Source: Bacteroidales bacterium (GTDB taxonomy: Bacteria > Bacteroidota > Bacteroidia > Bacteroidales > UBA7960). Taken from it: DNA of 33,746 bases. Positions 6,902-16,157 of this stretch are shown here, piece after piece. The stretch is taken from the NCBI GenBank assembly GCA_003560165.1, contig PWJC01000009.1:1-33746 (forward strand), read 5' to 3'. The notes beneath the pieces were generated by a model. The model was not told the DNA's origin, searched no databases, and worked only from the letters and a program-made list of their open reading frames with translations. A program made the position numbers and the translations under genes. Every line of letters starts with the position of its first letter. The first letter of the stretch is position 1.

Positions 6902-8170
6902 TTAGTTGTCTTTGTCGTAAAGTCTCACATTATCTATCCTGAATGAACCGTTGGTCCCCTGAGGATGACTGCCTTCGTACCTCCAGGCAATATGCACAAC
7001 TCCCTGGAATCCGCTCAGGTCGATCTCTCCCGAGTCAATCCATGTGTGGAAGCTGTCTTGTTGACCTGCCAGCCTCGCCTCCAGCGGCTCCCATGAGGCC
7101 CGGGCCGGGTCGCCTTCAAAGTCGGATGAAATATACAAACCGACTGCATCATGTGTAAGGAATTCGTGTGCGCTTTGAAATTCGAGTACGGGCGAACTGC
7201 TGGCATTCAGGTCGACCGGGGGGGTGATCAGCCACATGATGTTGTTTGGGTCGGGTGAGTTGAATGCGGTTGCCTGGGCATAATGATTCCCGGCAAAGGT
7301 GCGGCAGATCCACACCCTGCCGCCTTCCTCGGAAATGGTTTGCCAGCCGTTCTGTTCGATGTTCTCGAAATTCTCGTATCCCTGGAAGTCTTCGTTGATC
7401 GAGGTCACCAGATTTTCGTGGATGATGCATCGCTCATCCTCCATATCCAGTTCGTCCGGGTTGCGGATGAGCAATTGCCAGTTGTCGTGAAACTGCGAAA
7501 CAACGGCTACCAGCCTGCCGTTGCCCCGGGGTACTTCCTGGCCGGCAAAATCGGCAAATCCGCTGGTACGGACGATGATGCGGTCGCCATGGCAATCTTC
7601 CAGCACCCTGTTCCCGCTTTGCTGATTTTCTGCATCGGCAAATGTCCTGCCCAGTTCCGTGCTGCTGAATTGCACCTCTTCGAGCCGGACCAACCGGGCC
7701 TGATAGCCCCCGGCGAGGATGTCGGCAATTTCAACCACAACCGGATCGACAGGGATGCCCTCGCCCTGCAGTATCAGGTTGTTCCCGAATTGTACAGAGT
7801 CGAGCTGAAGCATGTTGTTGTAAGAGTTCAGCACCGAGCCCTTCAGGGAGAGCCGCACCGAGTCGCCCACCCGGAGGTCGCCGGCAAAGTCCATGCGCAG
7901 GTGGATCCCTGCAGTGGCATCCTGTACATAGGCCTCGCGGTATATGTTTCCGGACGATCCATCCATGGTCACCGTGGCATAAACCGACATGGGTTCGATG
8001 AAGGACAGGGGGCGACCGTCGTAGAGCCCCCTGAGTTCCGACATGCTCAACACTTCGCCCGGTTCATTCAGGGGGGGATGTTCGGGGTCTTTTTCGCATG
8101 AGGTCAGTACGGGCAACAACAGCAGGGCCGCCACTGCGCAAAAGAACTGCCGGATCTGGGTTGGGTTCAT
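6902..8170 (-). CDS. DUF5689 lipoprotein with choice-of-anchor J-like C-terminus
   Basis: A 422-residue exported lipoprotein (lipobox VLTSC, Cys25). Residues about 40-240 form a DUF5689-type region with an OB-fold-like pattern: SVYATVTMDGSSGNIYREAYVQD, GDSVRLSLKG, NNMLQLDSV, then a second conserved block (FADAENQ...LEDCHGDRIIVRTSGFADFAG...LVAVVSQF...LIRNPDEL). Residues about 260-420 resemble a choice-of-anchor J / cleaved-adhesin beta-sandwich: INEDFQGYENFENIEQNGW, ITPPVDLNASSSPVLEFQS, WEPLEARLAG, HIAWRYEGSHPQGTNGSFRIDNVRLYD. It is the last of three consecutive minus-strand genes (receptor, paralogue, this) with only 16 bp between it and its paralogue. Likely surface-exposed and possibly a ligand-capture subunit for the receptor; the ligand is unknown. 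The stop is 3 bp from the convergent desulfurase gene stop. Confidence 0.82.
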   Translation of the reverse strand: MNPTQIRQFFCAVAALLLLPVLTSCEKDPEHPPLNEPGEVLSMSELRGLYDGRPLSFIEPMSVYATVTMDGSSGNIYREAYVQDATAGIHLRMDFAGDLRVGDSVRLSLKGSVLNSYNNMLQLDSVQFGNNLILQGEGIPVDPVVVEIADILAGGYQARLVRLEEVQFSSTELGRTFADAENQQSGNRVLEDCHGDRIIVRTSGFADFAGQEVPRGNGRLVAVVSQFHDNWQLLIRNPDELDMEDERCIIHENLVTSINEDFQGYENFENIEQNGWQTISEEGGRVWICRTFAGNHYAQATAFNSPDPNNIMWLITPPVDLNASSSPVLEFQSAHEFLTHDAVGLYISSDFEGDPARASWEPLEARLAGQQDSFHTWIDSGEIDLSGFQGVVHIAWRYEGSHPQGTNGSFRIDNVRLYDKDN

Positions 8171-8186
8171 GGTAAACCGTTTTTTG

Positions 8187-9548
8187 TTATTCTATAATAA
8201 TATCGTTCAGGCTTCTGATCATCAGCTGGGGCTCAAAATGATAAGAGGCAATGCCGGTAAGGGTAAGAACGCCGGTGGGTAGCGCATTGCCTGCAAAACT
8301 GGCCCAGTTGTGGGTGTACATGGGCATGCTGCCCGTATTGTCGGTGATGGTCAGTGTGCCCGCAAACGTATTTCCTCCCGATATGATTGCCCCGCTGATG
8401 CGCACCAGGGTAGACTGGTAGGTATCAATGTTGTCCCTGATCTCACGGACGCTCACTTCTCTGGGGGCAGGCAGGTCGGCTGTACCCAGATTGTGGGCCT
8501 GTGCAATGGGTGTATTGTCTATCTGCAGCAAGCCCTGGTAATCGCTTACCCTCAGTCCTGATACGAGTACCCTGATGTGGGTGCCCAGTGGGAAATCGTG
8601 AAAACTACCGAACCTCACCACCATGCCCTGACCCGATTCGTCCATCATAAAGAGGTTCTGTCCGGGATGGTTTGAGTGCTCCCGGTCGGAGATCACCACG
8701 CCTTCGATGCGGGTGTTGTCGGGTATGCGGGCGACTCCTTCCCGGTAGTTTTGCCTCAGTTGGGCCAGGGTGATTAGTTCGTGATCATCGCCCGGAATAG
8801 CACATCGCTCCCCATCTAGTTCCACTTCATCCAGGTGGCGGATATAAAGCTGCATTTGGTTCATATGCTGGGAAACGATGGCCACCAGGTTGCCATTGCC
8901 CCCGGGAACCGGCTGACCGGCAAAGCTTGCATATCCGCTGGTGCGGACAATGATGCTGTTGCCATCGCAGTCTTCCAGCCTCCGGTTCTGGGGCTGGAGG
9001 TTTTCGGCGTCGGCAAAGGGGAGCCCGGTATGGGCATCGGCAAACTGTACCTCTGCAAGCTTCAGTAGTCGTCCCTGGTGTTGGGGGGTAATATCGGAGA
9101 TGCGCATTGGGGAGGCTGCGACGGTTTTTTGCGTGGCCAGTTTGATGATGTTGCGGTCGGCGTTCACGTTGTCGAGCTGCAGCATCTGCTGGTATGAGCC
9201 CAGGGTGGTGCCTTTCAGGTAGATCCTGACCGAATCGCCCTGGTAAATCCCGCCCGGGGCCTGCAGGCACAGGTTGATGGCCGCGGTGCCGTCTTCGACA
9301 AATGCGCTCCGGTAGATATTCCCCTTTTTGTCGTCCATGGTCACCGTGGCATACACCGAATAATCGCTGGTAAATTCATGGGGTCCTGCCTGGTACAACT
9401 CTCTGAGCTGTGCAATGGTGATGACATTGCCCACGGGGATATCATCCGGAAGGGATTCGGCGAAATCATCGTGGATGCAGCCACCCGGCAAAAGGGAAAC
9501 TGCAGGGAGGAGCATCAGCAGGGCTTTTTTCTTCAGGCGGTACATCAT
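8187..9548 (-). CDS. DUF5689 lipoprotein with repeated OB-like domains
   Basis: A 453-residue lipoprotein (lipobox LLPGGC, Cys24). The N-terminal half (about 40-245) is clearly homologous to the downstream gene product: SVYATVTMDDKKGNIYRSAFVED, GDSVRIYLKGTTLGSYQQMLQLDNV, FADAENLQPQNRRLEDCDG, IVRTSGYASFAGQPVPGG, ending in a shared ERC. The second half differs: instead of a beta-sandwich it carries another DUF5689-like unit (ITLAQLRQNYREGVARIPDN, RIEGVVISDREHSNHPGQNLF, QGMVVRF, LVSGLRVSDYQGLLQID, about 255-345) and a third, shorter OB-like stretch (VRISGAIISGGNTFAGTLTI...). Two in-frame ATGs (9548, 9545) are adjacent. It starts 28 bp after the receptor gene stop. The pair arose by duplication; binding of nucleic acid is only a hypothesis from the OB-like fold. 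Confidence 0.82.
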   Translation of the reverse strand: MMYRLKKKALLMLLPAVSLLPGGCIHDDFAESLPDDIPVGNVITIAQLRELYQAGPHEFTSDYSVYATVTMDDKKGNIYRSAFVEDGTAAINLCLQAPGGIYQGDSVRIYLKGTTLGSYQQMLQLDNVNADRNIIKLATQKTVAASPMRISDITPQHQGRLLKLAEVQFADAHTGLPFADAENLQPQNRRLEDCDGNSIIVRTSGYASFAGQPVPGGNGNLVAIVSQHMNQMQLYIRHLDEVELDGERCAIPGDDHELITLAQLRQNYREGVARIPDNTRIEGVVISDREHSNHPGQNLFMMDESGQGMVVRFGSFHDFPLGTHIRVLVSGLRVSDYQGLLQIDNTPIAQAHNLGTADLPAPREVSVREIRDNIDTYQSTLVRISGAIISGGNTFAGTLTITDNTGSMPMYTHNWASFAGNALPTGVLTLTGIASYHFEPQLMIRSLNDIIIE

Positions 9549-9576: not shown

Positions 9577-12141
9577 TTAAAACCTGAGGGCCAGGTTGGC
9601 AAAATAGGTCCTGCCGTAGAGGTAAAAATACTTGGGTGCGAACTGACCGGGCCTGTGTGAATCATAACGCAGCTGCTCAAACCCGCCGGTGCGAAAATCC
9701 TGTTTGTTCATCAGGTTGCTGACACTGATATTGAAATTGATAAAATACTGCCGTTGGATCCGCCACGATCTTCCAGCAAAGGCATCGAAGGTGAAGGCAT
9801 CGGACAATTTTTCCTGCCTGAGCAGTTCTTCCCACTGGGGGTCTGTGTGCACCAGGTTCCCGAGGGCTTCGGCCGTACGCCGGTCGGGATTGATGTCGAG
9901 GTAAATGTCGTTGAAGTAGTTCGCGTTCACACCCACAAACCAATACCTGGGGCTGTCGTACCGCAGGCCTGCCGATCCGGCAGTATGGGTCATGCCGCCG
10001 ATCCTGTAACCCTTTAAAAATACCTCCCTGCCTTCGGCCACTACCTCAAAGTCATTGTCTCTGGCAATGGTCACTTCGGGACGGGAGTTATAGATGTAAT
10101 CGCCGGTGCCGGCAACAATATAGGACGACAGGGTAGGGCTCAGCGAAAGGTCGATGCCCAGTTCAACGCCCATATGCCGGGTATCCAGGTCTGTCATGAT
10201 GTAATTGACAAAGGTGCGCAACTCGTCGTGGTAAAAACTCCTCGACCAGGTCTGGTCGTGAAACTCTGTATAGAACAGACTCAGACGCGATTTGATGAAA
10301 GGGGTGCGCACAACATAGCTGACATCGCCCGAAAAGATCGTTTCGCTGCCAAGGTCTTCGATCACATGGTCCCTGACCCGTGAAGAGATATAGGCATCGC
10401 GGAAATAGGGTGCCCGGGTCATCATAGCGGCGTTTGCGTCGAGGTATTGGCGGCCGGTGATCTTAAAGGTAGCTCCGCCCTTTAGCCCGTAGTTGGTGAA
10501 GTTTTGTTTTTCGCTGTCTCCATAGGAGTTTTCGGGGAATCGTGCATTTCTCATATGCCCCGTGCGCCAGAATGTGGTGTGGGAAAGCTGGCCTGCCACA
10601 TGGAAATCCCAGCGCGGGAGTATCCACTCACTTTGTGCAAACACCGAATATTCGTTGATATTTCCCGTAAAATCGTAACCAAAGACCTCGCCTTGCTTCA
10701 CAATGCGGTTTGGGTTGTTCAGATCGGGCTGTGCCATCATGGGGTCGTCAAAGTCCCTTTCAGCAAACTGATCGATGTCGAACCACCACTCACCGCCCAG
10801 CAGGTCGTCGACGGTCTTGAACTGATGAGTTTGCGACAAGGAAATGTTGAATCCGCCTGTTAAAACATGTGTCGGGTCGGCAATGTGCTCGATGGTGCTG
10901 TTGAACACCAGTTGGGTGCGGTCGTTGCGCCTTTCTTCAACGATGTATTTCGACCGCATGCCGGTAACGTCAGCGTCCTGGTCATTGGCGTTTTCGACGG
11001 TAAACAGGTTGAGGCGATTGGCGTTGTAAAACCAGGCCCAGTCAATTTGCCGGAAAGCGTCGTCGGTTTGCCAGAGGCTGGTGGTGAGTTCGTACATGGC
11101 CGGATCGTTGCGGTGCCAGCTTGGCAGCCAGCGATAATAATCCGGACGCGGATCTCCGGCCAGATGGTAGTCGGGGTGATCGAAGGATTTGTGGCTGTCG
11201 TACCAGTTCAGTGCCGTTGATCCTCCCCGCCCGAAACCGTAGGCTGCACTGGTTGAGATCTCTGTTTGCCCGCCGGCTGTGTAGTAATGCGAGAGGATGA
11301 TCCATGGGTTATGGTATTGGTTCACCCGCGAATTCCGTTTTTCTCCCTCCTGGTAACCCCAGTTGGGGTTGTAGAAATTGTCTCCCGTTAAATCGTAGGC
11401 TTCCTGAACGGCCACCCCGGGCCTGCCGCTGCGCGAGGGAGCCCCGAATGCGACCAGCCCAAGACTGTGGCGGTTGTTTAGTTCCCTTTCGGCCGAGAGA
11501 AAATATCCCCAGGCATCGTAAAAAGTCCCGGGGGCATACCCCTCGCCGGCCGACCGCCTCGACCCGCTGAGCGTCAAGGCCCAGCCGTTGTCTTGCATGC
11601 CGGTGTTGTGCGTGAACATCATCCGGTGGTTATAGGTGCGGTTTGCACTGGAGTAGGTGGTGCGTGTACCGGCTCCGAACCGTGAGGCCCGGGTGACGAT
11701 ATTAGTTGCCCCGCCGACGCCACCGAACGCCTGCCGGGAGGGGCCAAGGCCGTGTACGGGTTCGGTCATGCGGGTTACATCGTTCAGCCCTCCCCATACC
11801 GAATAAAAGGCCCGGCCTGTTTCCGGATCGTTCACGGGGATGCCGTTGATCATCACCCGGGTGTTTTCGGAGTCATAACCGCGAATCCGGTAACGGGCGG
11901 CCCCAAAGTTAAACCCCGCCGTGTTCACATAAATGTCGCGCGAACCCTGCAGCAGGCTCGAAATATCGTGCGACTCGGCATCGCCCTCCATGTCGGCGAT
12001 GCTCAGGGTGATCACAGGTATCTGCCGGTCGTCAGCCTCCAGGGTGTCGGGCACTTCTGTGGTTTCCGCAGGGGTTTGGGCGAACAAAGTGCCCAGGCAT
12101 GCCGCGATCACCAGAAAGGACAGAAAATAACGCTTCTTCAT
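9577..12141 (-). CDS. TonB-dependent outer-membrane receptor
   Basis: A TonB-dependent receptor: an N-terminal plug followed by a 22-strand-type barrel that imports a substrate across the outer membrane using the proton gradient. The ATG at 12141 gives 854 residues and starts directly with a signal peptide (MKKRYFLSFLVIAACLGTLFAQ); an ATG nine codons upstream gives an unlikely polar leader. Plug motifs: RIRGYDSENTRVMINGIPVND, VHGLGPSRQAFGGVGGATNIV. The end is YLYGRTYFANLALRF, with the terminal aromatic typical of outer-membrane barrels. It lacks the CarboxypepD_reg-like domain that precedes SusC-type receptors, and no SusD is present. It is followed by two DUF5689 lipoproteins and faces a secreted EEP-fold enzyme. 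The substrate is unknown. Confidence 0.93.
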   Translation of the reverse strand: MKKRYFLSFLVIAACLGTLFAQTPAETTEVPDTLEADDRQIPVITLSIADMEGDAESHDISSLLQGSRDIYVNTAGFNFGAARYRIRGYDSENTRVMINGIPVNDPETGRAFYSVWGGLNDVTRMTEPVHGLGPSRQAFGGVGGATNIVTRASRFGAGTRTTYSSANRTYNHRMMFTHNTGMQDNGWALTLSGSRRSAGEGYAPGTFYDAWGYFLSAERELNNRHSLGLVAFGAPSRSGRPGVAVQEAYDLTGDNFYNPNWGYQEGEKRNSRVNQYHNPWIILSHYYTAGGQTEISTSAAYGFGRGGSTALNWYDSHKSFDHPDYHLAGDPRPDYYRWLPSWHRNDPAMYELTTSLWQTDDAFRQIDWAWFYNANRLNLFTVENANDQDADVTGMRSKYIVEERRNDRTQLVFNSTIEHIADPTHVLTGGFNISLSQTHQFKTVDDLLGGEWWFDIDQFAERDFDDPMMAQPDLNNPNRIVKQGEVFGYDFTGNINEYSVFAQSEWILPRWDFHVAGQLSHTTFWRTGHMRNARFPENSYGDSEKQNFTNYGLKGGATFKITGRQYLDANAAMMTRAPYFRDAYISSRVRDHVIEDLGSETIFSGDVSYVVRTPFIKSRLSLFYTEFHDQTWSRSFYHDELRTFVNYIMTDLDTRHMGVELGIDLSLSPTLSSYIVAGTGDYIYNSRPEVTIARDNDFEVVAEGREVFLKGYRIGGMTHTAGSAGLRYDSPRYWFVGVNANYFNDIYLDINPDRRTAEALGNLVHTDPQWEELLRQEKLSDAFTFDAFAGRSWRIQRQYFINFNISVSNLMNKQDFRTGGFEQLRYDSHRPGQFAPKYFYLYGRTYFANLALRF

Positions 12142-12247
12142 GGCTTCTTCATTTACAGATAACATCAAAGCGGGTGCTATGTCAACGCTACTTTAGCCAG
12201 AGCTTTTTTATTCGCAACATCCATAAGTCGAATAAAAAAACTTCATG

Positions 12248-12292: not shown

Positions 12293-13354
12293 ATGTCTGA
12301 CAAATTGCCTTTTACCTCCCTGGCGCTTGCCCTGACCCTGTTTTTGGTCACCCCCGGGGCATATGCTCAGGATGCCGGCGATAAACGTGAGTTTGTCGGG
12401 GTCTGTATCGGTTTTTACAATGTGGAGAATCTGTTCGATACCATCAACGACCCCGCCATCCGCGACAACGACTTTACGCCCGAAGGCAGCAACCGCTGGA
12501 ATACGGAACGCTATTTTGAAAAATTGGAAAACCTGGCAGAGGTTATTCAGCGGCTCGGCCAGAACCTGACCCCCGACGGGCCGGCGGTGCTCGGACTGGC
12601 GGAAGTGGAGAACAAAACGGTACTCGAAGATCTGGCGCAACAGGAAAAGATCCGCGACCGCAACTATCAGATAGTGCACATTACCAGCCCCGATCCCAGG
12701 GGTATGGACGTGGCCTATCTTTACAATCCAACCTATTTTGAGTACATCAGTTACAAGGCCTATCCGACCATCGTCGAAGGCCGCCCCGATTTCCGGACCC
12801 GGCATCAACTGCTGCTTACCGGTAATCTGTTGGGGGAGCGCATGCACTTTATCGTGGCCCACTGGCCCAGCAGGGTAGGAGGAGAGGCCCGCAGCCGCCC
12901 CCTTCGTATTGTCGCAGCCGACATTGCCCGGCACATCATTGATTCCATCCAGGAGGCAGAACCCGGCGCAAAGGTGTTCCTGATGGGCGACTTCAACGAC
13001 AACCCCAACGATATCAGCATCAGAAAGCATTTGCGATCAAGGGGGGACAAGGAGGGCCTCTCGGAAGAAGAACTTTTCAACCCATTTGAGGATTTCTACC
13101 GCCGGGGTATCGGCACCAATGCCTGGCGGGACGCCTGGAGCCTGTTCGACCAGATATTGCTGACCCCTTCCTTACTGGGCGATGACTTCAGTGAGCTGAC
13201 CTATCTCCGTGCCGAGGTGTTCAACAGGCCGTTTTTGAGGCAGCCCTCGGGCAGATTCCAGGGATACCCATTCCGTTCCTTTGGCGGAGGGGTTTACCTG
13301 GGCGGCTACAGCGACCACTTCCCGGTGGTTGTCTTTTTAATCAGAGAAACCTAA
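12293..13354 (+). CDS. Secreted endonuclease/exonuclease/phosphatase-fold protein
   Basis: A 353-residue member of the endonuclease/exonuclease/phosphatase (EEP, DNase I-like) superfamily with an N-terminal signal peptide cleaved near AYAQ (residue 26). Catalytic landmarks are complete: N43 and E45 in NVENLFD, metal ligand E104 in LAEVEN, H190 in HWPSR, D233 and N235 in GDFNDNPND, and the final D341-H342 in YSDHFPVVV. EEP proteins cleave phosphodiesters or phosphomonoesters in nucleic acids or lipids; the exact substrate cannot be read from these motifs. It is exported, and is divergent from the receptor/DUF5689 genes, which suggests it degrades an extracellular or periplasmic phosphate ester whose products are taken up. 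It is followed 14 bp later by a small gene on the same strand. Confidence 0.88.
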   Translation: MSDKLPFTSLALALTLFLVTPGAYAQDAGDKREFVGVCIGFYNVENLFDTINDPAIRDNDFTPEGSNRWNTERYFEKLENLAEVIQRLGQNLTPDGPAVLGLAEVENKTVLEDLAQQEKIRDRNYQIVHITSPDPRGMDVAYLYNPTYFEYISYKAYPTIVEGRPDFRTRHQLLLTGNLLGERMHFIVAHWPSRVGGEARSRPLRIVAADIARHIIDSIQEAEPGAKVFLMGDFNDNPNDISIRKHLRSRGDKEGLSEEELFNPFEDFYRRGIGTNAWRDAWSLFDQILLTPSLLGDDFSELTYLRAEVFNRPFLRQPSGRFQGYPFRSFGGGVYLGGYSDHFPVVVFLIRET

Positions 13355-13368
13355 AACAACCCCAGCCC

Positions 13369-13641
13369 ATGTCTGAAAACAACACCCGCACACCCCGGGC
13401 AGGATCCCGCAAAAAAAGAAAAGGCATCAGGTACCGGCAGCTGGGGTTCAAGCTCACCGAGGGGCAGAAAAAGGCCCTGGATAATTATTGCAGGTCAAAC
13501 CAGCTGACCCCCATTCGTTTCATCAAATCGCTGGTCAATGAACATGTAGCCCGTTACCGTCCGGATCCTGCACCTCCCAGTTACGCCACCCCGAACCAGC
13601 TGGAACTGTTTGAGGCCGGGAAGTCCAAAGCCGGGAAGTAA
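13369..13641 (+). CDS. Small basic protein with C-terminal QLELF clamp-type motif
   Basis: A 90-residue cytoplasmic protein. Residues 1-22 are very basic (RKKRKGIRYR). Residues about 21-62 resemble a ribbon-helix-helix or related short DNA-binding unit: a strand RYRQLGFKLT, a helix EGQKKALDNYCRS, a turn NQLTP and a helix IRFIKSLVNEHV. Near the end, residues 76-81 read NQLELF; QLELF (77-81) closely matches the bacterial beta-clamp-binding pentapeptide consensus QL(S/D)LF. I recall similar small Bacteroidetes proteins that end in TPNQLDLF, but cannot confirm the family. It is 14 bp downstream of the EEP gene and convergent with mutS2. A role at the replication fork or in repair is inference. 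Confidence 0.7.
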   Translation: MSENNTRTPRAGSRKKRKGIRYRQLGFKLTEGQKKALDNYCRSNQLTPIRFIKSLVNEHVARYRPDPAPPSYATPNQLELFEAGKSKAGK

Positions 13642-13672: not shown

Positions 13673-16123
13673 CTACATCCTGAAATCCACAATGGTCATC
13701 CCGGCACCGCCCCTGTCGGGGTGTTCGTCGCGGAAGCGGCTGATCCCGGGAAGATCCTTCAGGGTTTCCCTGATGGCCTGCCGCAGGATGCCGTCGCCTT
13801 TGCCGTGCAAAATACGTACCTGATGAATGCCGAGCAGCATGGCATCGTCGATGTACAACTGCAGCTTTTTCAGAGCCTCGTTTGCCTTCTGCCCCCTCAG
13901 GTCAAGTTCGGGATGAAAGGCCGCTGCCTTTTCGTTGATGTCAAACGACAATCGGGAAGCGGGCCTGCCTGCCGGCAAGGGGGCCAGGCTGCTCTTTTTT
14001 AATTTCTCGAGATCATCCAGCTTCATCCTTGCCTGCATATTCCCGAACAATACCAGGGCTTTATTGCCTTCGATACGAATGACTTCTCCAGCGGTTTCAC
14101 CGCCCTTCATCCTGACCGGATCGCCGGGAAAGATGGGGGTGGGATCGGGCTCGGCTTTCGGGACAGGCTTTTTCTTCTTTTTGCCCCTGACCCTTATGGC
14201 AGGTAGCGGGGTGCTGTCGAGGGCCTGGGATTGTGCGCCGGCATAGTCCTCCAGCTTCCGCCTGACCGTTTTGGTTTTTTCCCTGTCGGCCCCCGATTCC
14301 CTGATCTCCCTGATGGTGTTTTCGATGATTTTGTTGGCGCCCGAAAGGATGTCTTTGGCTTCTTTGCGGGCCTGGATGAGGATCTCGTTTTTCCTGTCGC
14401 TCAGTTCTCCACCCAGTCTTTCATATTTTTCGATCATTTCGGCCAGGAAATCGTCTGCCTGGCGGAGCTGTTTTTCCTTGTCTTCCAGCCGGGCCTTTTT
14501 TACCTCCAGGTCCTGCAGCTGGATGTCGAAGTCCAGTTCCTGCTGACCGGTCAGTGAGGCGGCATTCTCCAGCAGGCTTTCGGGCAGCCCGATGGTCCTG
14601 GCGATCTCAAAAGCGAAGCTGCTGCCGGGAGTGCCTGTTTTGAGCCTGAACAGCGGCTTCATCCTTTCGGTGTCGAACAACATGGATCCATTCAATATGC
14701 CAGGGTGGCTGCCGGCCATCAGCTTGAGGTTCGCATAATGGGTAGTCACCACCCCGAAGGCCTTCCGCCTGTTCAACTGCTCCAGAATGGCCTGTGCGAT
14801 GGCCCCGCCAATGCGGGGCTCGGTACCCGACCCGAACTCATCAATAAGGAAGAGGCTGGCTTTGTCCATACGCTCCAGGCAGTATTTCATGTTCAGCAAA
14901 TGGGAGCTGTAGGTGCTCAGGTCGTTGTCAAGCGACTGTTCGTCGCCGATGTCGATGAATAGCTGGCTGAAGATCCCGGCCTCCGAATGGCTTTCCATGG
15001 GTACCGGCAACCCGCATTGCAGCATATACTGGAGCAACCCGAAGGTTTTCAGGCATACGGATTTCCCACCGGCATTGGGCCCTGAAATGACCAGTATCCT
15101 GTTATCCCGGTCAAGGCTTATACTGAGGGGTTCCACATGTTTGTCCTGGGCCTTGTGCGAAAGATACAGCAAAGGGTGCCTGGCGTTGACCCAGCGGATC
15201 AGCGGGGCGGCCGTCAAACGCGGCATGGACGCCCCCAGCTCCAAAGCCAGCCTGGCTTTTGCCCGGAAAGCGTCCATATGCCCCAGCATCACATAGGCTT
15301 TTTCCAGGTTTGGGATCGCCGGGCGAAGCCAATCGGCAAATTCCCTGAGCAGTCTGACAATCTCCCTGCGTTCCTCTGCATCCAGATCGCGCAATCGGTT
15401 ATTGAGTTCGAACACCTCTTCCGGCTCGACATAGGCTGTTTGCCCGGTGGCCGAATGGTCGTGGACAAAACCCCGCAACTTGCGCTTGTAGGCCACGGTT
15501 AACGGGATCAGTTGCCGGCCGTTTCTGAGGGCCAGTTCGGCATCCTGTTGGATCCATCCCTGGGATTTGCCTTCGGAGAGCAATTGCAGGATGCGTTTTT
15601 TGGCCAGGGCAGCCGTATCGGCCTTTTTCTGGCGTATGGCTGCCAGCTCCGGGGAGGCAGTGTCCCGGACCACGGCTTTTTCATCGACCAGGGCATCGAT
15701 GCGGCCCGGGATGGTATTGTCTACTTCCAGATTGACCGTAAGCCTGGCCAGCCAGGGGTACCTGAGTTCTCCCCTGTCGTTGGTGCCCGACAAAAAGGAG
15801 ATGATCCGCAAAATGGTATCCACCGACCGGCCGATGTCGAGCAGCACCCCGGCCTCGGCAAAGGTTTGCTCTATGCGCAGCGTGGAAAACACCCCGGATG
15901 GGTCGTAATAGCCTGAGCCGGGAAAGCTCTCTCCTCTCAGCAGTATCTGACGGAACTCCTCGGTCTGCTGCTGAAGGCATTGTATCCGTTCCAGACCGGT
16001 TTCAAAACGGATCCTGCCGATCTCCCGCTGGCCGAGGATACTGAAGCAATGCGCGCTCAGCATTTCCCGAATGCGGTCAAATCCGGTTTTTTCCTCAAAA
16101 TGTTCAGGGTAAACCGGGGTCAT
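13673..16123 (-). CDS. mutS2: MutS2 ATPase/nuclease
   Basis: MutS2-family protein with MutS-like ATPase core and C-terminal Smr domain, acting on recombination intermediates or collided ribosomes depending on species. From the ATG at 16123 it has 816 residues: an N-terminal region, a coiled core, Walker A GPNAGGKS (348-355), Walker B with D428-E429 in LFLIDEFGSGTEP, a long coiled coil (about 525-640), a linker rich in KKKKPVPK, and the Smr domain with LDLRG (D741) and HGKG (H773). A further ATG ten codons upstream (16153) lies only 4 bp from a perfect -7 box, so transcription would start inside those codons; the MTPVYPEHFEEKTGFDRI start is also the family-typical one. No mutS or mutL lies nearby. 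Confidence 0.93.
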   Translation of the reverse strand: MTPVYPEHFEEKTGFDRIREMLSAHCFSILGQREIGRIRFETGLERIQCLQQQTEEFRQILLRGESFPGSGYYDPSGVFSTLRIEQTFAEAGVLLDIGRSVDTILRIISFLSGTNDRGELRYPWLARLTVNLEVDNTIPGRIDALVDEKAVVRDTASPELAAIRQKKADTAALAKKRILQLLSEGKSQGWIQQDAELALRNGRQLIPLTVAYKRKLRGFVHDHSATGQTAYVEPEEVFELNNRLRDLDAEERREIVRLLREFADWLRPAIPNLEKAYVMLGHMDAFRAKARLALELGASMPRLTAAPLIRWVNARHPLLYLSHKAQDKHVEPLSISLDRDNRILVISGPNAGGKSVCLKTFGLLQYMLQCGLPVPMESHSEAGIFSQLFIDIGDEQSLDNDLSTYSSHLLNMKYCLERMDKASLFLIDEFGSGTEPRIGGAIAQAILEQLNRRKAFGVVTTHYANLKLMAGSHPGILNGSMLFDTERMKPLFRLKTGTPGSSFAFEIARTIGLPESLLENAASLTGQQELDFDIQLQDLEVKKARLEDKEKQLRQADDFLAEMIEKYERLGGELSDRKNEILIQARKEAKDILSGANKIIENTIREIRESGADREKTKTVRRKLEDYAGAQSQALDSTPLPAIRVRGKKKKKPVPKAEPDPTPIFPGDPVRMKGGETAGEVIRIEGNKALVLFGNMQARMKLDDLEKLKKSSLAPLPAGRPASRLSFDINEKAAAFHPELDLRGQKANEALKKLQLYIDDAMLLGIHQVRILHGKGDGILRQAIRETLKDLPGISRFRDEHPDRGGAGMTIVDFRM

Positions 16124-16157
16124 CTGTTTTTTCTGTTTGGACTGCGAACTCATAATA

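Follow-up and report, generated by a model that had tools for sequence, protein, structure and literature searches.

A small predicted ribbon-helix-helix protein family of Bacteroidales with a conserved tail motif of the sliding-clamp-binding type

Two known kinds of protein come closest to the one described here: the DNA-binding proteins of the ribbon-helix-helix (RHH; CopG/Arc/MetJ) superfamily and the clients of the sliding clamp DnaN, such as Pol IV, Pol II, MutS, Hda, and the alpha subunit of Pol III. YabA is a dedicated accessory protein with a clamp-binding function. The control of replication and repair has been thinly studied in Bacteroidota, and what is known of sliding-clamp clients comes mainly from E. 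coli and B. subtilis. In the available part of a review (PMC11139829), every clamp client is an enzyme, a part of the clamp loader, or an AAA+ protein. The same part gives QL(S/D)LF as the consensus of the bacterial clamp motif, in which Gln is critical, Leu is preferred at position 2, and Phe is preferred at the end. The motif lies at the C-terminal end of Pol II and Pol IV, and the Hda motif, QLSLPL, has a KD of 0.38 uM (PMC11139829, in the part available).

The window analyzed in this study is the whole stretch of 33,746 nucleotides from a Bacteroidales bacterium (contig PWJC01000009.1). An ORF on its forward strand, with the ATG at 13369 and the stop codon at 13639-13641, encodes a 90-residue protein (P0001), MSENNTRTPRAGSRKKRKGIRYRQLGFKLTEGQKKALDNYCRSNQLTPIRFIKSLVNEHVARYRPDPAPPSYATPNQLELFEAGKSKAGK. 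The ORF and its translation confirmed that QLELF occupies residues 77-81, where the original prediction from the DNA sequence had placed it. The gene, the parts of its product, and the two flanking genes are as follows.

12293-13354, forward strand: Exo_endo_phos_3 gene (Pfam), 14 bp upstream of the ATG, whose product has an apparent signal peptide; local to the genus context of the window
13369-13641, forward strand: gene of the small predicted RHH protein (ORF, 90 aa); 91 of the 295 sampled genomes of the order encode a homologue
13369-13428, forward strand: basic N-terminal arm (residues 1-20, with RKKRKG), rich in Lys and Arg in nearly all homologues and variable in length
13429-13557, forward strand: predicted RHH domain (residues 21-63; strand 21-29, helices 31-44 and 48-63), from AlphaFold2, Foldseek, and VIA
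13558-13596, forward strand: variable linker (residues 64-76) with small indels, in which most columns carry only 0.4-2 bits of information
13597-13611, forward strand: QLELF (residues 77-81), a canonical pentapeptide of the bacterial clamp-binding type, judged by its conservation and its match to the QL(S/D)LF consensus (PMC11139829, in the part available)
13673-16153, reverse strand: mutS2 (Pfam MutS_V and Smr), convergent; most of the family has recR here instead

Is the tail motif conserved among the homologues, as the original prediction demanded? In an alignment of 59 homologues (A2; 20-65% identity to P0001), from which one motif-less and one long-tailed row had been left out, every column varies except Q77 and F81. 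Because of the omitted motif-less row, a count over all complete proteins is the fair measure of conservation, and the pattern Q[LIM].[LIM]F is present in 87 of the 91 complete homologues (60/61 in one set and 27/30 in a second, whose 31st protein is cut by a contig end and was not counted). In the 61-protein alignment used for column information, Q77 carries 4.5 bits and F81 4.4 bits, and their conservation exceeds that of the RHH domain. When tails of 45 residues were shuffled, the same pattern appeared in 0.3% of them (0.1% for P0001), which excludes a chance origin for a motif found in 87 of 91 proteins. The motif was lost in only one genus, of which two homologues (L247 of G013 and L103 of G130) have KQIDLEEL and keep the RHH domain. 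About ten members have a second copy, such as L109 (QLELF...QLELF), L114 (QLSLF...QLSIF), and L260 and L277 (both QLELF...QMNIF).

The tolerated residues are L, I, or M at positions 2 and 4, any residue at position 3, and F at position 5, rarely replaced by W (QLDLW in G148) or Y (QLQLY in G095). This is the substitution pattern of bacterial clamp-binding motifs (PMC11139829). The gap from the last helix to the motif varies, and the tail after the motif is 0 to 56 residues long, as is expected of a short linear motif and not of a folded element. The family thus resembles the DnaN clients in having a canonical pentapeptide with a conserved substitution pattern on a flexible tail. It differs from them in consisting of proteins of 70-105 residues of a DNA-binding type, in which a catalytic domain is absent.

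The clamp of the same genome was compared with E. coli DnaN at the positions generally taken to make up the peptide-binding pocket of the latter. The cognate DnaN (G000:C92) keeps R152, T172, H175, L177, P242, V247, N320, V361, M362, P363, and L366, and it is changed at positions 155 (L to M), 174 (G to A), 176 (R to K), 246 (R to A), 323 (Y to F), 346 (S to A), 360 (V to L), 364 (M to V), and 365 (R to M). Clamp-type motifs are also found in DnaE (QMDLF), DinB (QLNMF; L213, G000:C124), and MutS (QLSFF; L214, G000:C42) of this genome, near the C-terminus in the latter two. The retained core of the pocket and the motifs of these three proteins suggest that the pocket reads the same kind of peptide. 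Taken with the location of the motif in an exposed segment and its conservation among orthologues, it is likely that P0001 binds DnaN.

The original prediction had also described a basic N-terminus and a possible RHH-like middle, and both were borne out. The median net charge is +9 across the family over the 22 residues preceding the core. In the AlphaFold2 model (made with A2), the mean pLDDT is 82.9, and the blocks over residues 21-60 reach 94-97. An extended segment (21-29) is followed by the two helices listed above and by a less certain helix at 77-88. QLELF lies outside the RHH core, where it starts this lower-confidence helix and is not extended. The predicted strand and two helices span about 43 residues, and 40-50 are expected of an RHH domain. 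Foldseek gave no match below E 0.001, as can be expected of such a small domain; the great majority of its ranked matches are RHH proteins (CopG, Arc, PutA, TacA, and CopASO). VIA-align gave Z 4-5 to the same RHH set as well as NikR and MatP, with an rmsd of 1.2-2.5 A over 44-48 residues for the best-fitting chains; over both comparisons, the best RHH matches cover 40-48 residues within this rmsd range. P0001 itself matches no RHH profile, and its homologues have weak matches to RHH_1, RHH_7 (best E 1.8e-7), RHH_9, RepB-RCR_reg, and RelB antitoxin profiles. From these models and matches, the fold of P0001 is predicted to be ribbon-helix-helix. The protein differs from the described superfamily in falling below every curated cut-off and in having a basic arm and an invariant clamp-type motif at the C-terminal side, with no toxin neighbour.

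In the predicted strand, positions 25, 27, and 29 are hydrophobic and position 28 is almost always Lys, while the outward positions 24 and 26 vary. This pattern would fit a backbone or low-specificity contact with DNA combined with lineage-specific readout, and DNA binding by the protein is likely. RHH nucleoid proteins exist, and CdbA and MatP share the RHH DNA-binding fold and are among the structural matches, although their sequence identity to P0001 is about 10%. The variable positions 24 and 26 and the conserved K28 would also be compatible with the low-specificity binding of a nucleoid protein. Could P0001 be a transcription factor or, in the manner of MatP and CdbA, a nucleoid protein whose QLxLF segment contacts a partner other than the clamp? 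I consider this very unlikely, since the substitution pattern of the motif matches the clamp pocket and I know of no other partner that reads QLxLF. Nor do I know of a clamp motif in CdbA or MatP.

Homologues were found in 83 of 295 Bacteroidales genomes by a single-sequence search and in 91 by a 14-row profile, almost always as one copy per genome. As an exception, G269 has two copies (L082 and L271) on separate contigs, both with QLDLF, which are either paralogues or contamination. The named records with a homologue are Bacteroidales, including Lentimicrobiaceae, and come from many environmental and rumen or gut metagenomes. A class-wide draw of 395 genomes gave only two matches, both within the same order, and a draw across the phylum gave weak partial matches alone outside the order. 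Five of these, whose ORFs were read (L201-L204 and L207), were rejected as members; they are short proteins, several of them antitoxin-like RHH proteins, and the absence of the motif means that they support the fold and not family membership. No motif-bearing homologue was found outside the order in the class and phylum draws, phages, or plasmids. Phages, plasmids, and IMG/VR contigs yielded no homologue at all; an origin from mobile elements is therefore not supported. A divergent, overlooked copy beside recR was not found in 30 non-hit genomes of the order, each of which has recR, when that site was inspected. One of them (G034) belongs to the same genus as the gene-bearing G148. Many other families of the order do not have the gene, and thus it is not universally needed. 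On these search outcomes, the family looks vertically inherited and restricted to the order, with gaps. No curated family in Pfam, NCBIfam, or PHROG names P0001 above its cut-off; a Pfam match to phi29 GP16.7 (E 0.14) was dismissed as noise. A described family joining an RHH domain with a clamp motif was not found in the profile libraries or in the literature searched, which was mainly open.

The neighborhood was analyzed at 61 loci, with the names of glmM, recR, and mutS2 checked with Pfam and those of the other neighbors assigned by eye. The convergent mutS2 of the original prediction is real in the window, where its stop codon lies 31 bp past that of the RHH gene, but across the order this arrangement is limited to the genus of the window. 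The usual downstream neighbor is recR, which is within four genes in 32 of the 61 loci, convergent and mostly under 150 bp away. On the other side, glmM is within four genes in 38 loci, usually directly upstream on the same strand and mostly under 200 bp away. Both are near the gene in 22 loci, in the usual order glmM, gene, and convergent recR. TPR, aroE, and MORN-type protein genes are found farther away. A convergent recR does not mean co-transcription, and the neighbor on the same strand is usually glmM, which encodes a cell-wall enzyme. The adjacency to recR is suggestive at most and is no evidence of a shared pathway. At two loci, L074 (G083:C162) and L276 (G276:C87), the stop codon of glmM is missing and glmM is fused in frame to the RHH-QLNLF protein in a frame of 544 codons; there is no ATG, GTG, or TTG at the junction. 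Elsewhere in the window, two adjoining reverse-strand genes at 6902-9548 encode similar proteins with a common SVYATVTMD..GNIYR segment. They are apparently lipoproteins from a tandem duplication and lie beside a gene resembling those of TonB-dependent receptors (9577-12168).

These neighborhoods bear on two further explanations. The nearest solved folds include RHH antitoxins, whose C-terminal tails bind toxins; P0001 might then be an ordinary antitoxin or repressor whose tail binds a toxin or another partner, with only an incidental likeness to clamp motifs. This is very unlikely, because no toxin gene recurs in the 61 loci (glmM, recR, TPR, and aroE do), conservation in the tail is confined to a five-residue motif that matches the clamp consensus, and no plasmid or phage copies were found. 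The other explanation is a regulator of replication initiation, a Bacteroidales counterpart of Hda and YabA that would use the clamp as a sensor of ongoing replication while its RHH domain binds origin DNA or DnaA. The hallmark of Hda is a clamp motif borne by a small, dedicated protein (PMC11139829, in the part available), and an architecture of DNA binding plus clamp binding would suit such a regulator. However, the neighborhoods show no link to dnaA, dnaN, or oriC, the gene is patchy in the order, the AAA+ domain is absent, and such a factor was not found in the mainly open literature searched, so that initiation control seems unlikely. P0001 resembles Hda in being a dedicated accessory protein with a clamp-binding motif, and is set apart from it by fold (AAA+ versus the predicted RHH), not by a sequence comparison. 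The domains of YabA also differ from the RHH domain predicted here.

Since a DNA-binding domain is joined to a near-invariant tail motif of the clamp type, the family is probably an unrecognized accessory factor of replication or repair. I favor a dimeric RHH DNA-binding protein that is tethered to the clamp and serves as an accessory of DNA maintenance; the probability of this reading, in which DnaN binding, DNA binding, dimerization, and the pathway are all inferred, is about 0.72. Weighing against it are the genus that lost the motif, the many families of the order that do not have the gene, the placement of the motif in a helix by AlphaFold2, and glmM as the usual same-strand partner. With recR instead of mutS2 as the usual neighbor, the original interpretation as a factor that binds both DNA and the clamp is supported in this corrected form. 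The RHH dimer would bind DNA via its paired beta-strands and basic N-terminal arms, and the QLELF of each subunit, carried on a flexible tail some 13 residues long, would dock in the peptide pocket of DnaN. Because dimer and clamp share two-fold symmetry, a single RHH dimer could fill the two clefts of a clamp and at the same time hold the duplex next to it. In a large part of Bacteroidales, the protein would most likely mark or stabilize clamps that remain on newly replicated or gapped DNA, or regulate access to them, on the side of RecFOR or mismatch repair. A function in post-replicative maintenance or clamp access is favored over initiation control, although the two are poorly resolved from each other.

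The two tails of a dimer might instead cap both clefts and limit the access of polymerases and repair proteins, as a brake and not a recruiter. One canonical motif of a high-affinity type per subunit, doubled in about ten members, and the lack of a catalytic domain are consistent with such a competitor. Sequence does not separate a brake from a tether, and simple capping would not need a conserved basic arm and an RHH domain; a mere brake is unlikely. This explanation and initiation control are variants within the clamp-client reading, and the confidence in each therefore overlaps with that in the clamp-tethered accessory. A bolder reading is a dedicated, symmetric clamp-occupancy factor, in which two tails (four if the motif is duplicated) would occupy the clefts of a single DnaN ring, with the RHH domain gripping the duplex beside it. 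I regard this as rather unlikely. If true, Bacteroidales would have a clamp-based control of replication or gap repair without counterpart in E. coli or B. subtilis. By its sequence features, the family appears to be a new, non-enzymatic family of clamp clients joining the two known kinds, clamp client and RHH DNA binder. A conserved, widespread, and non-enzymatic protein that combines a DNA-binding domain with a clamp motif would represent a new class of clamp client.
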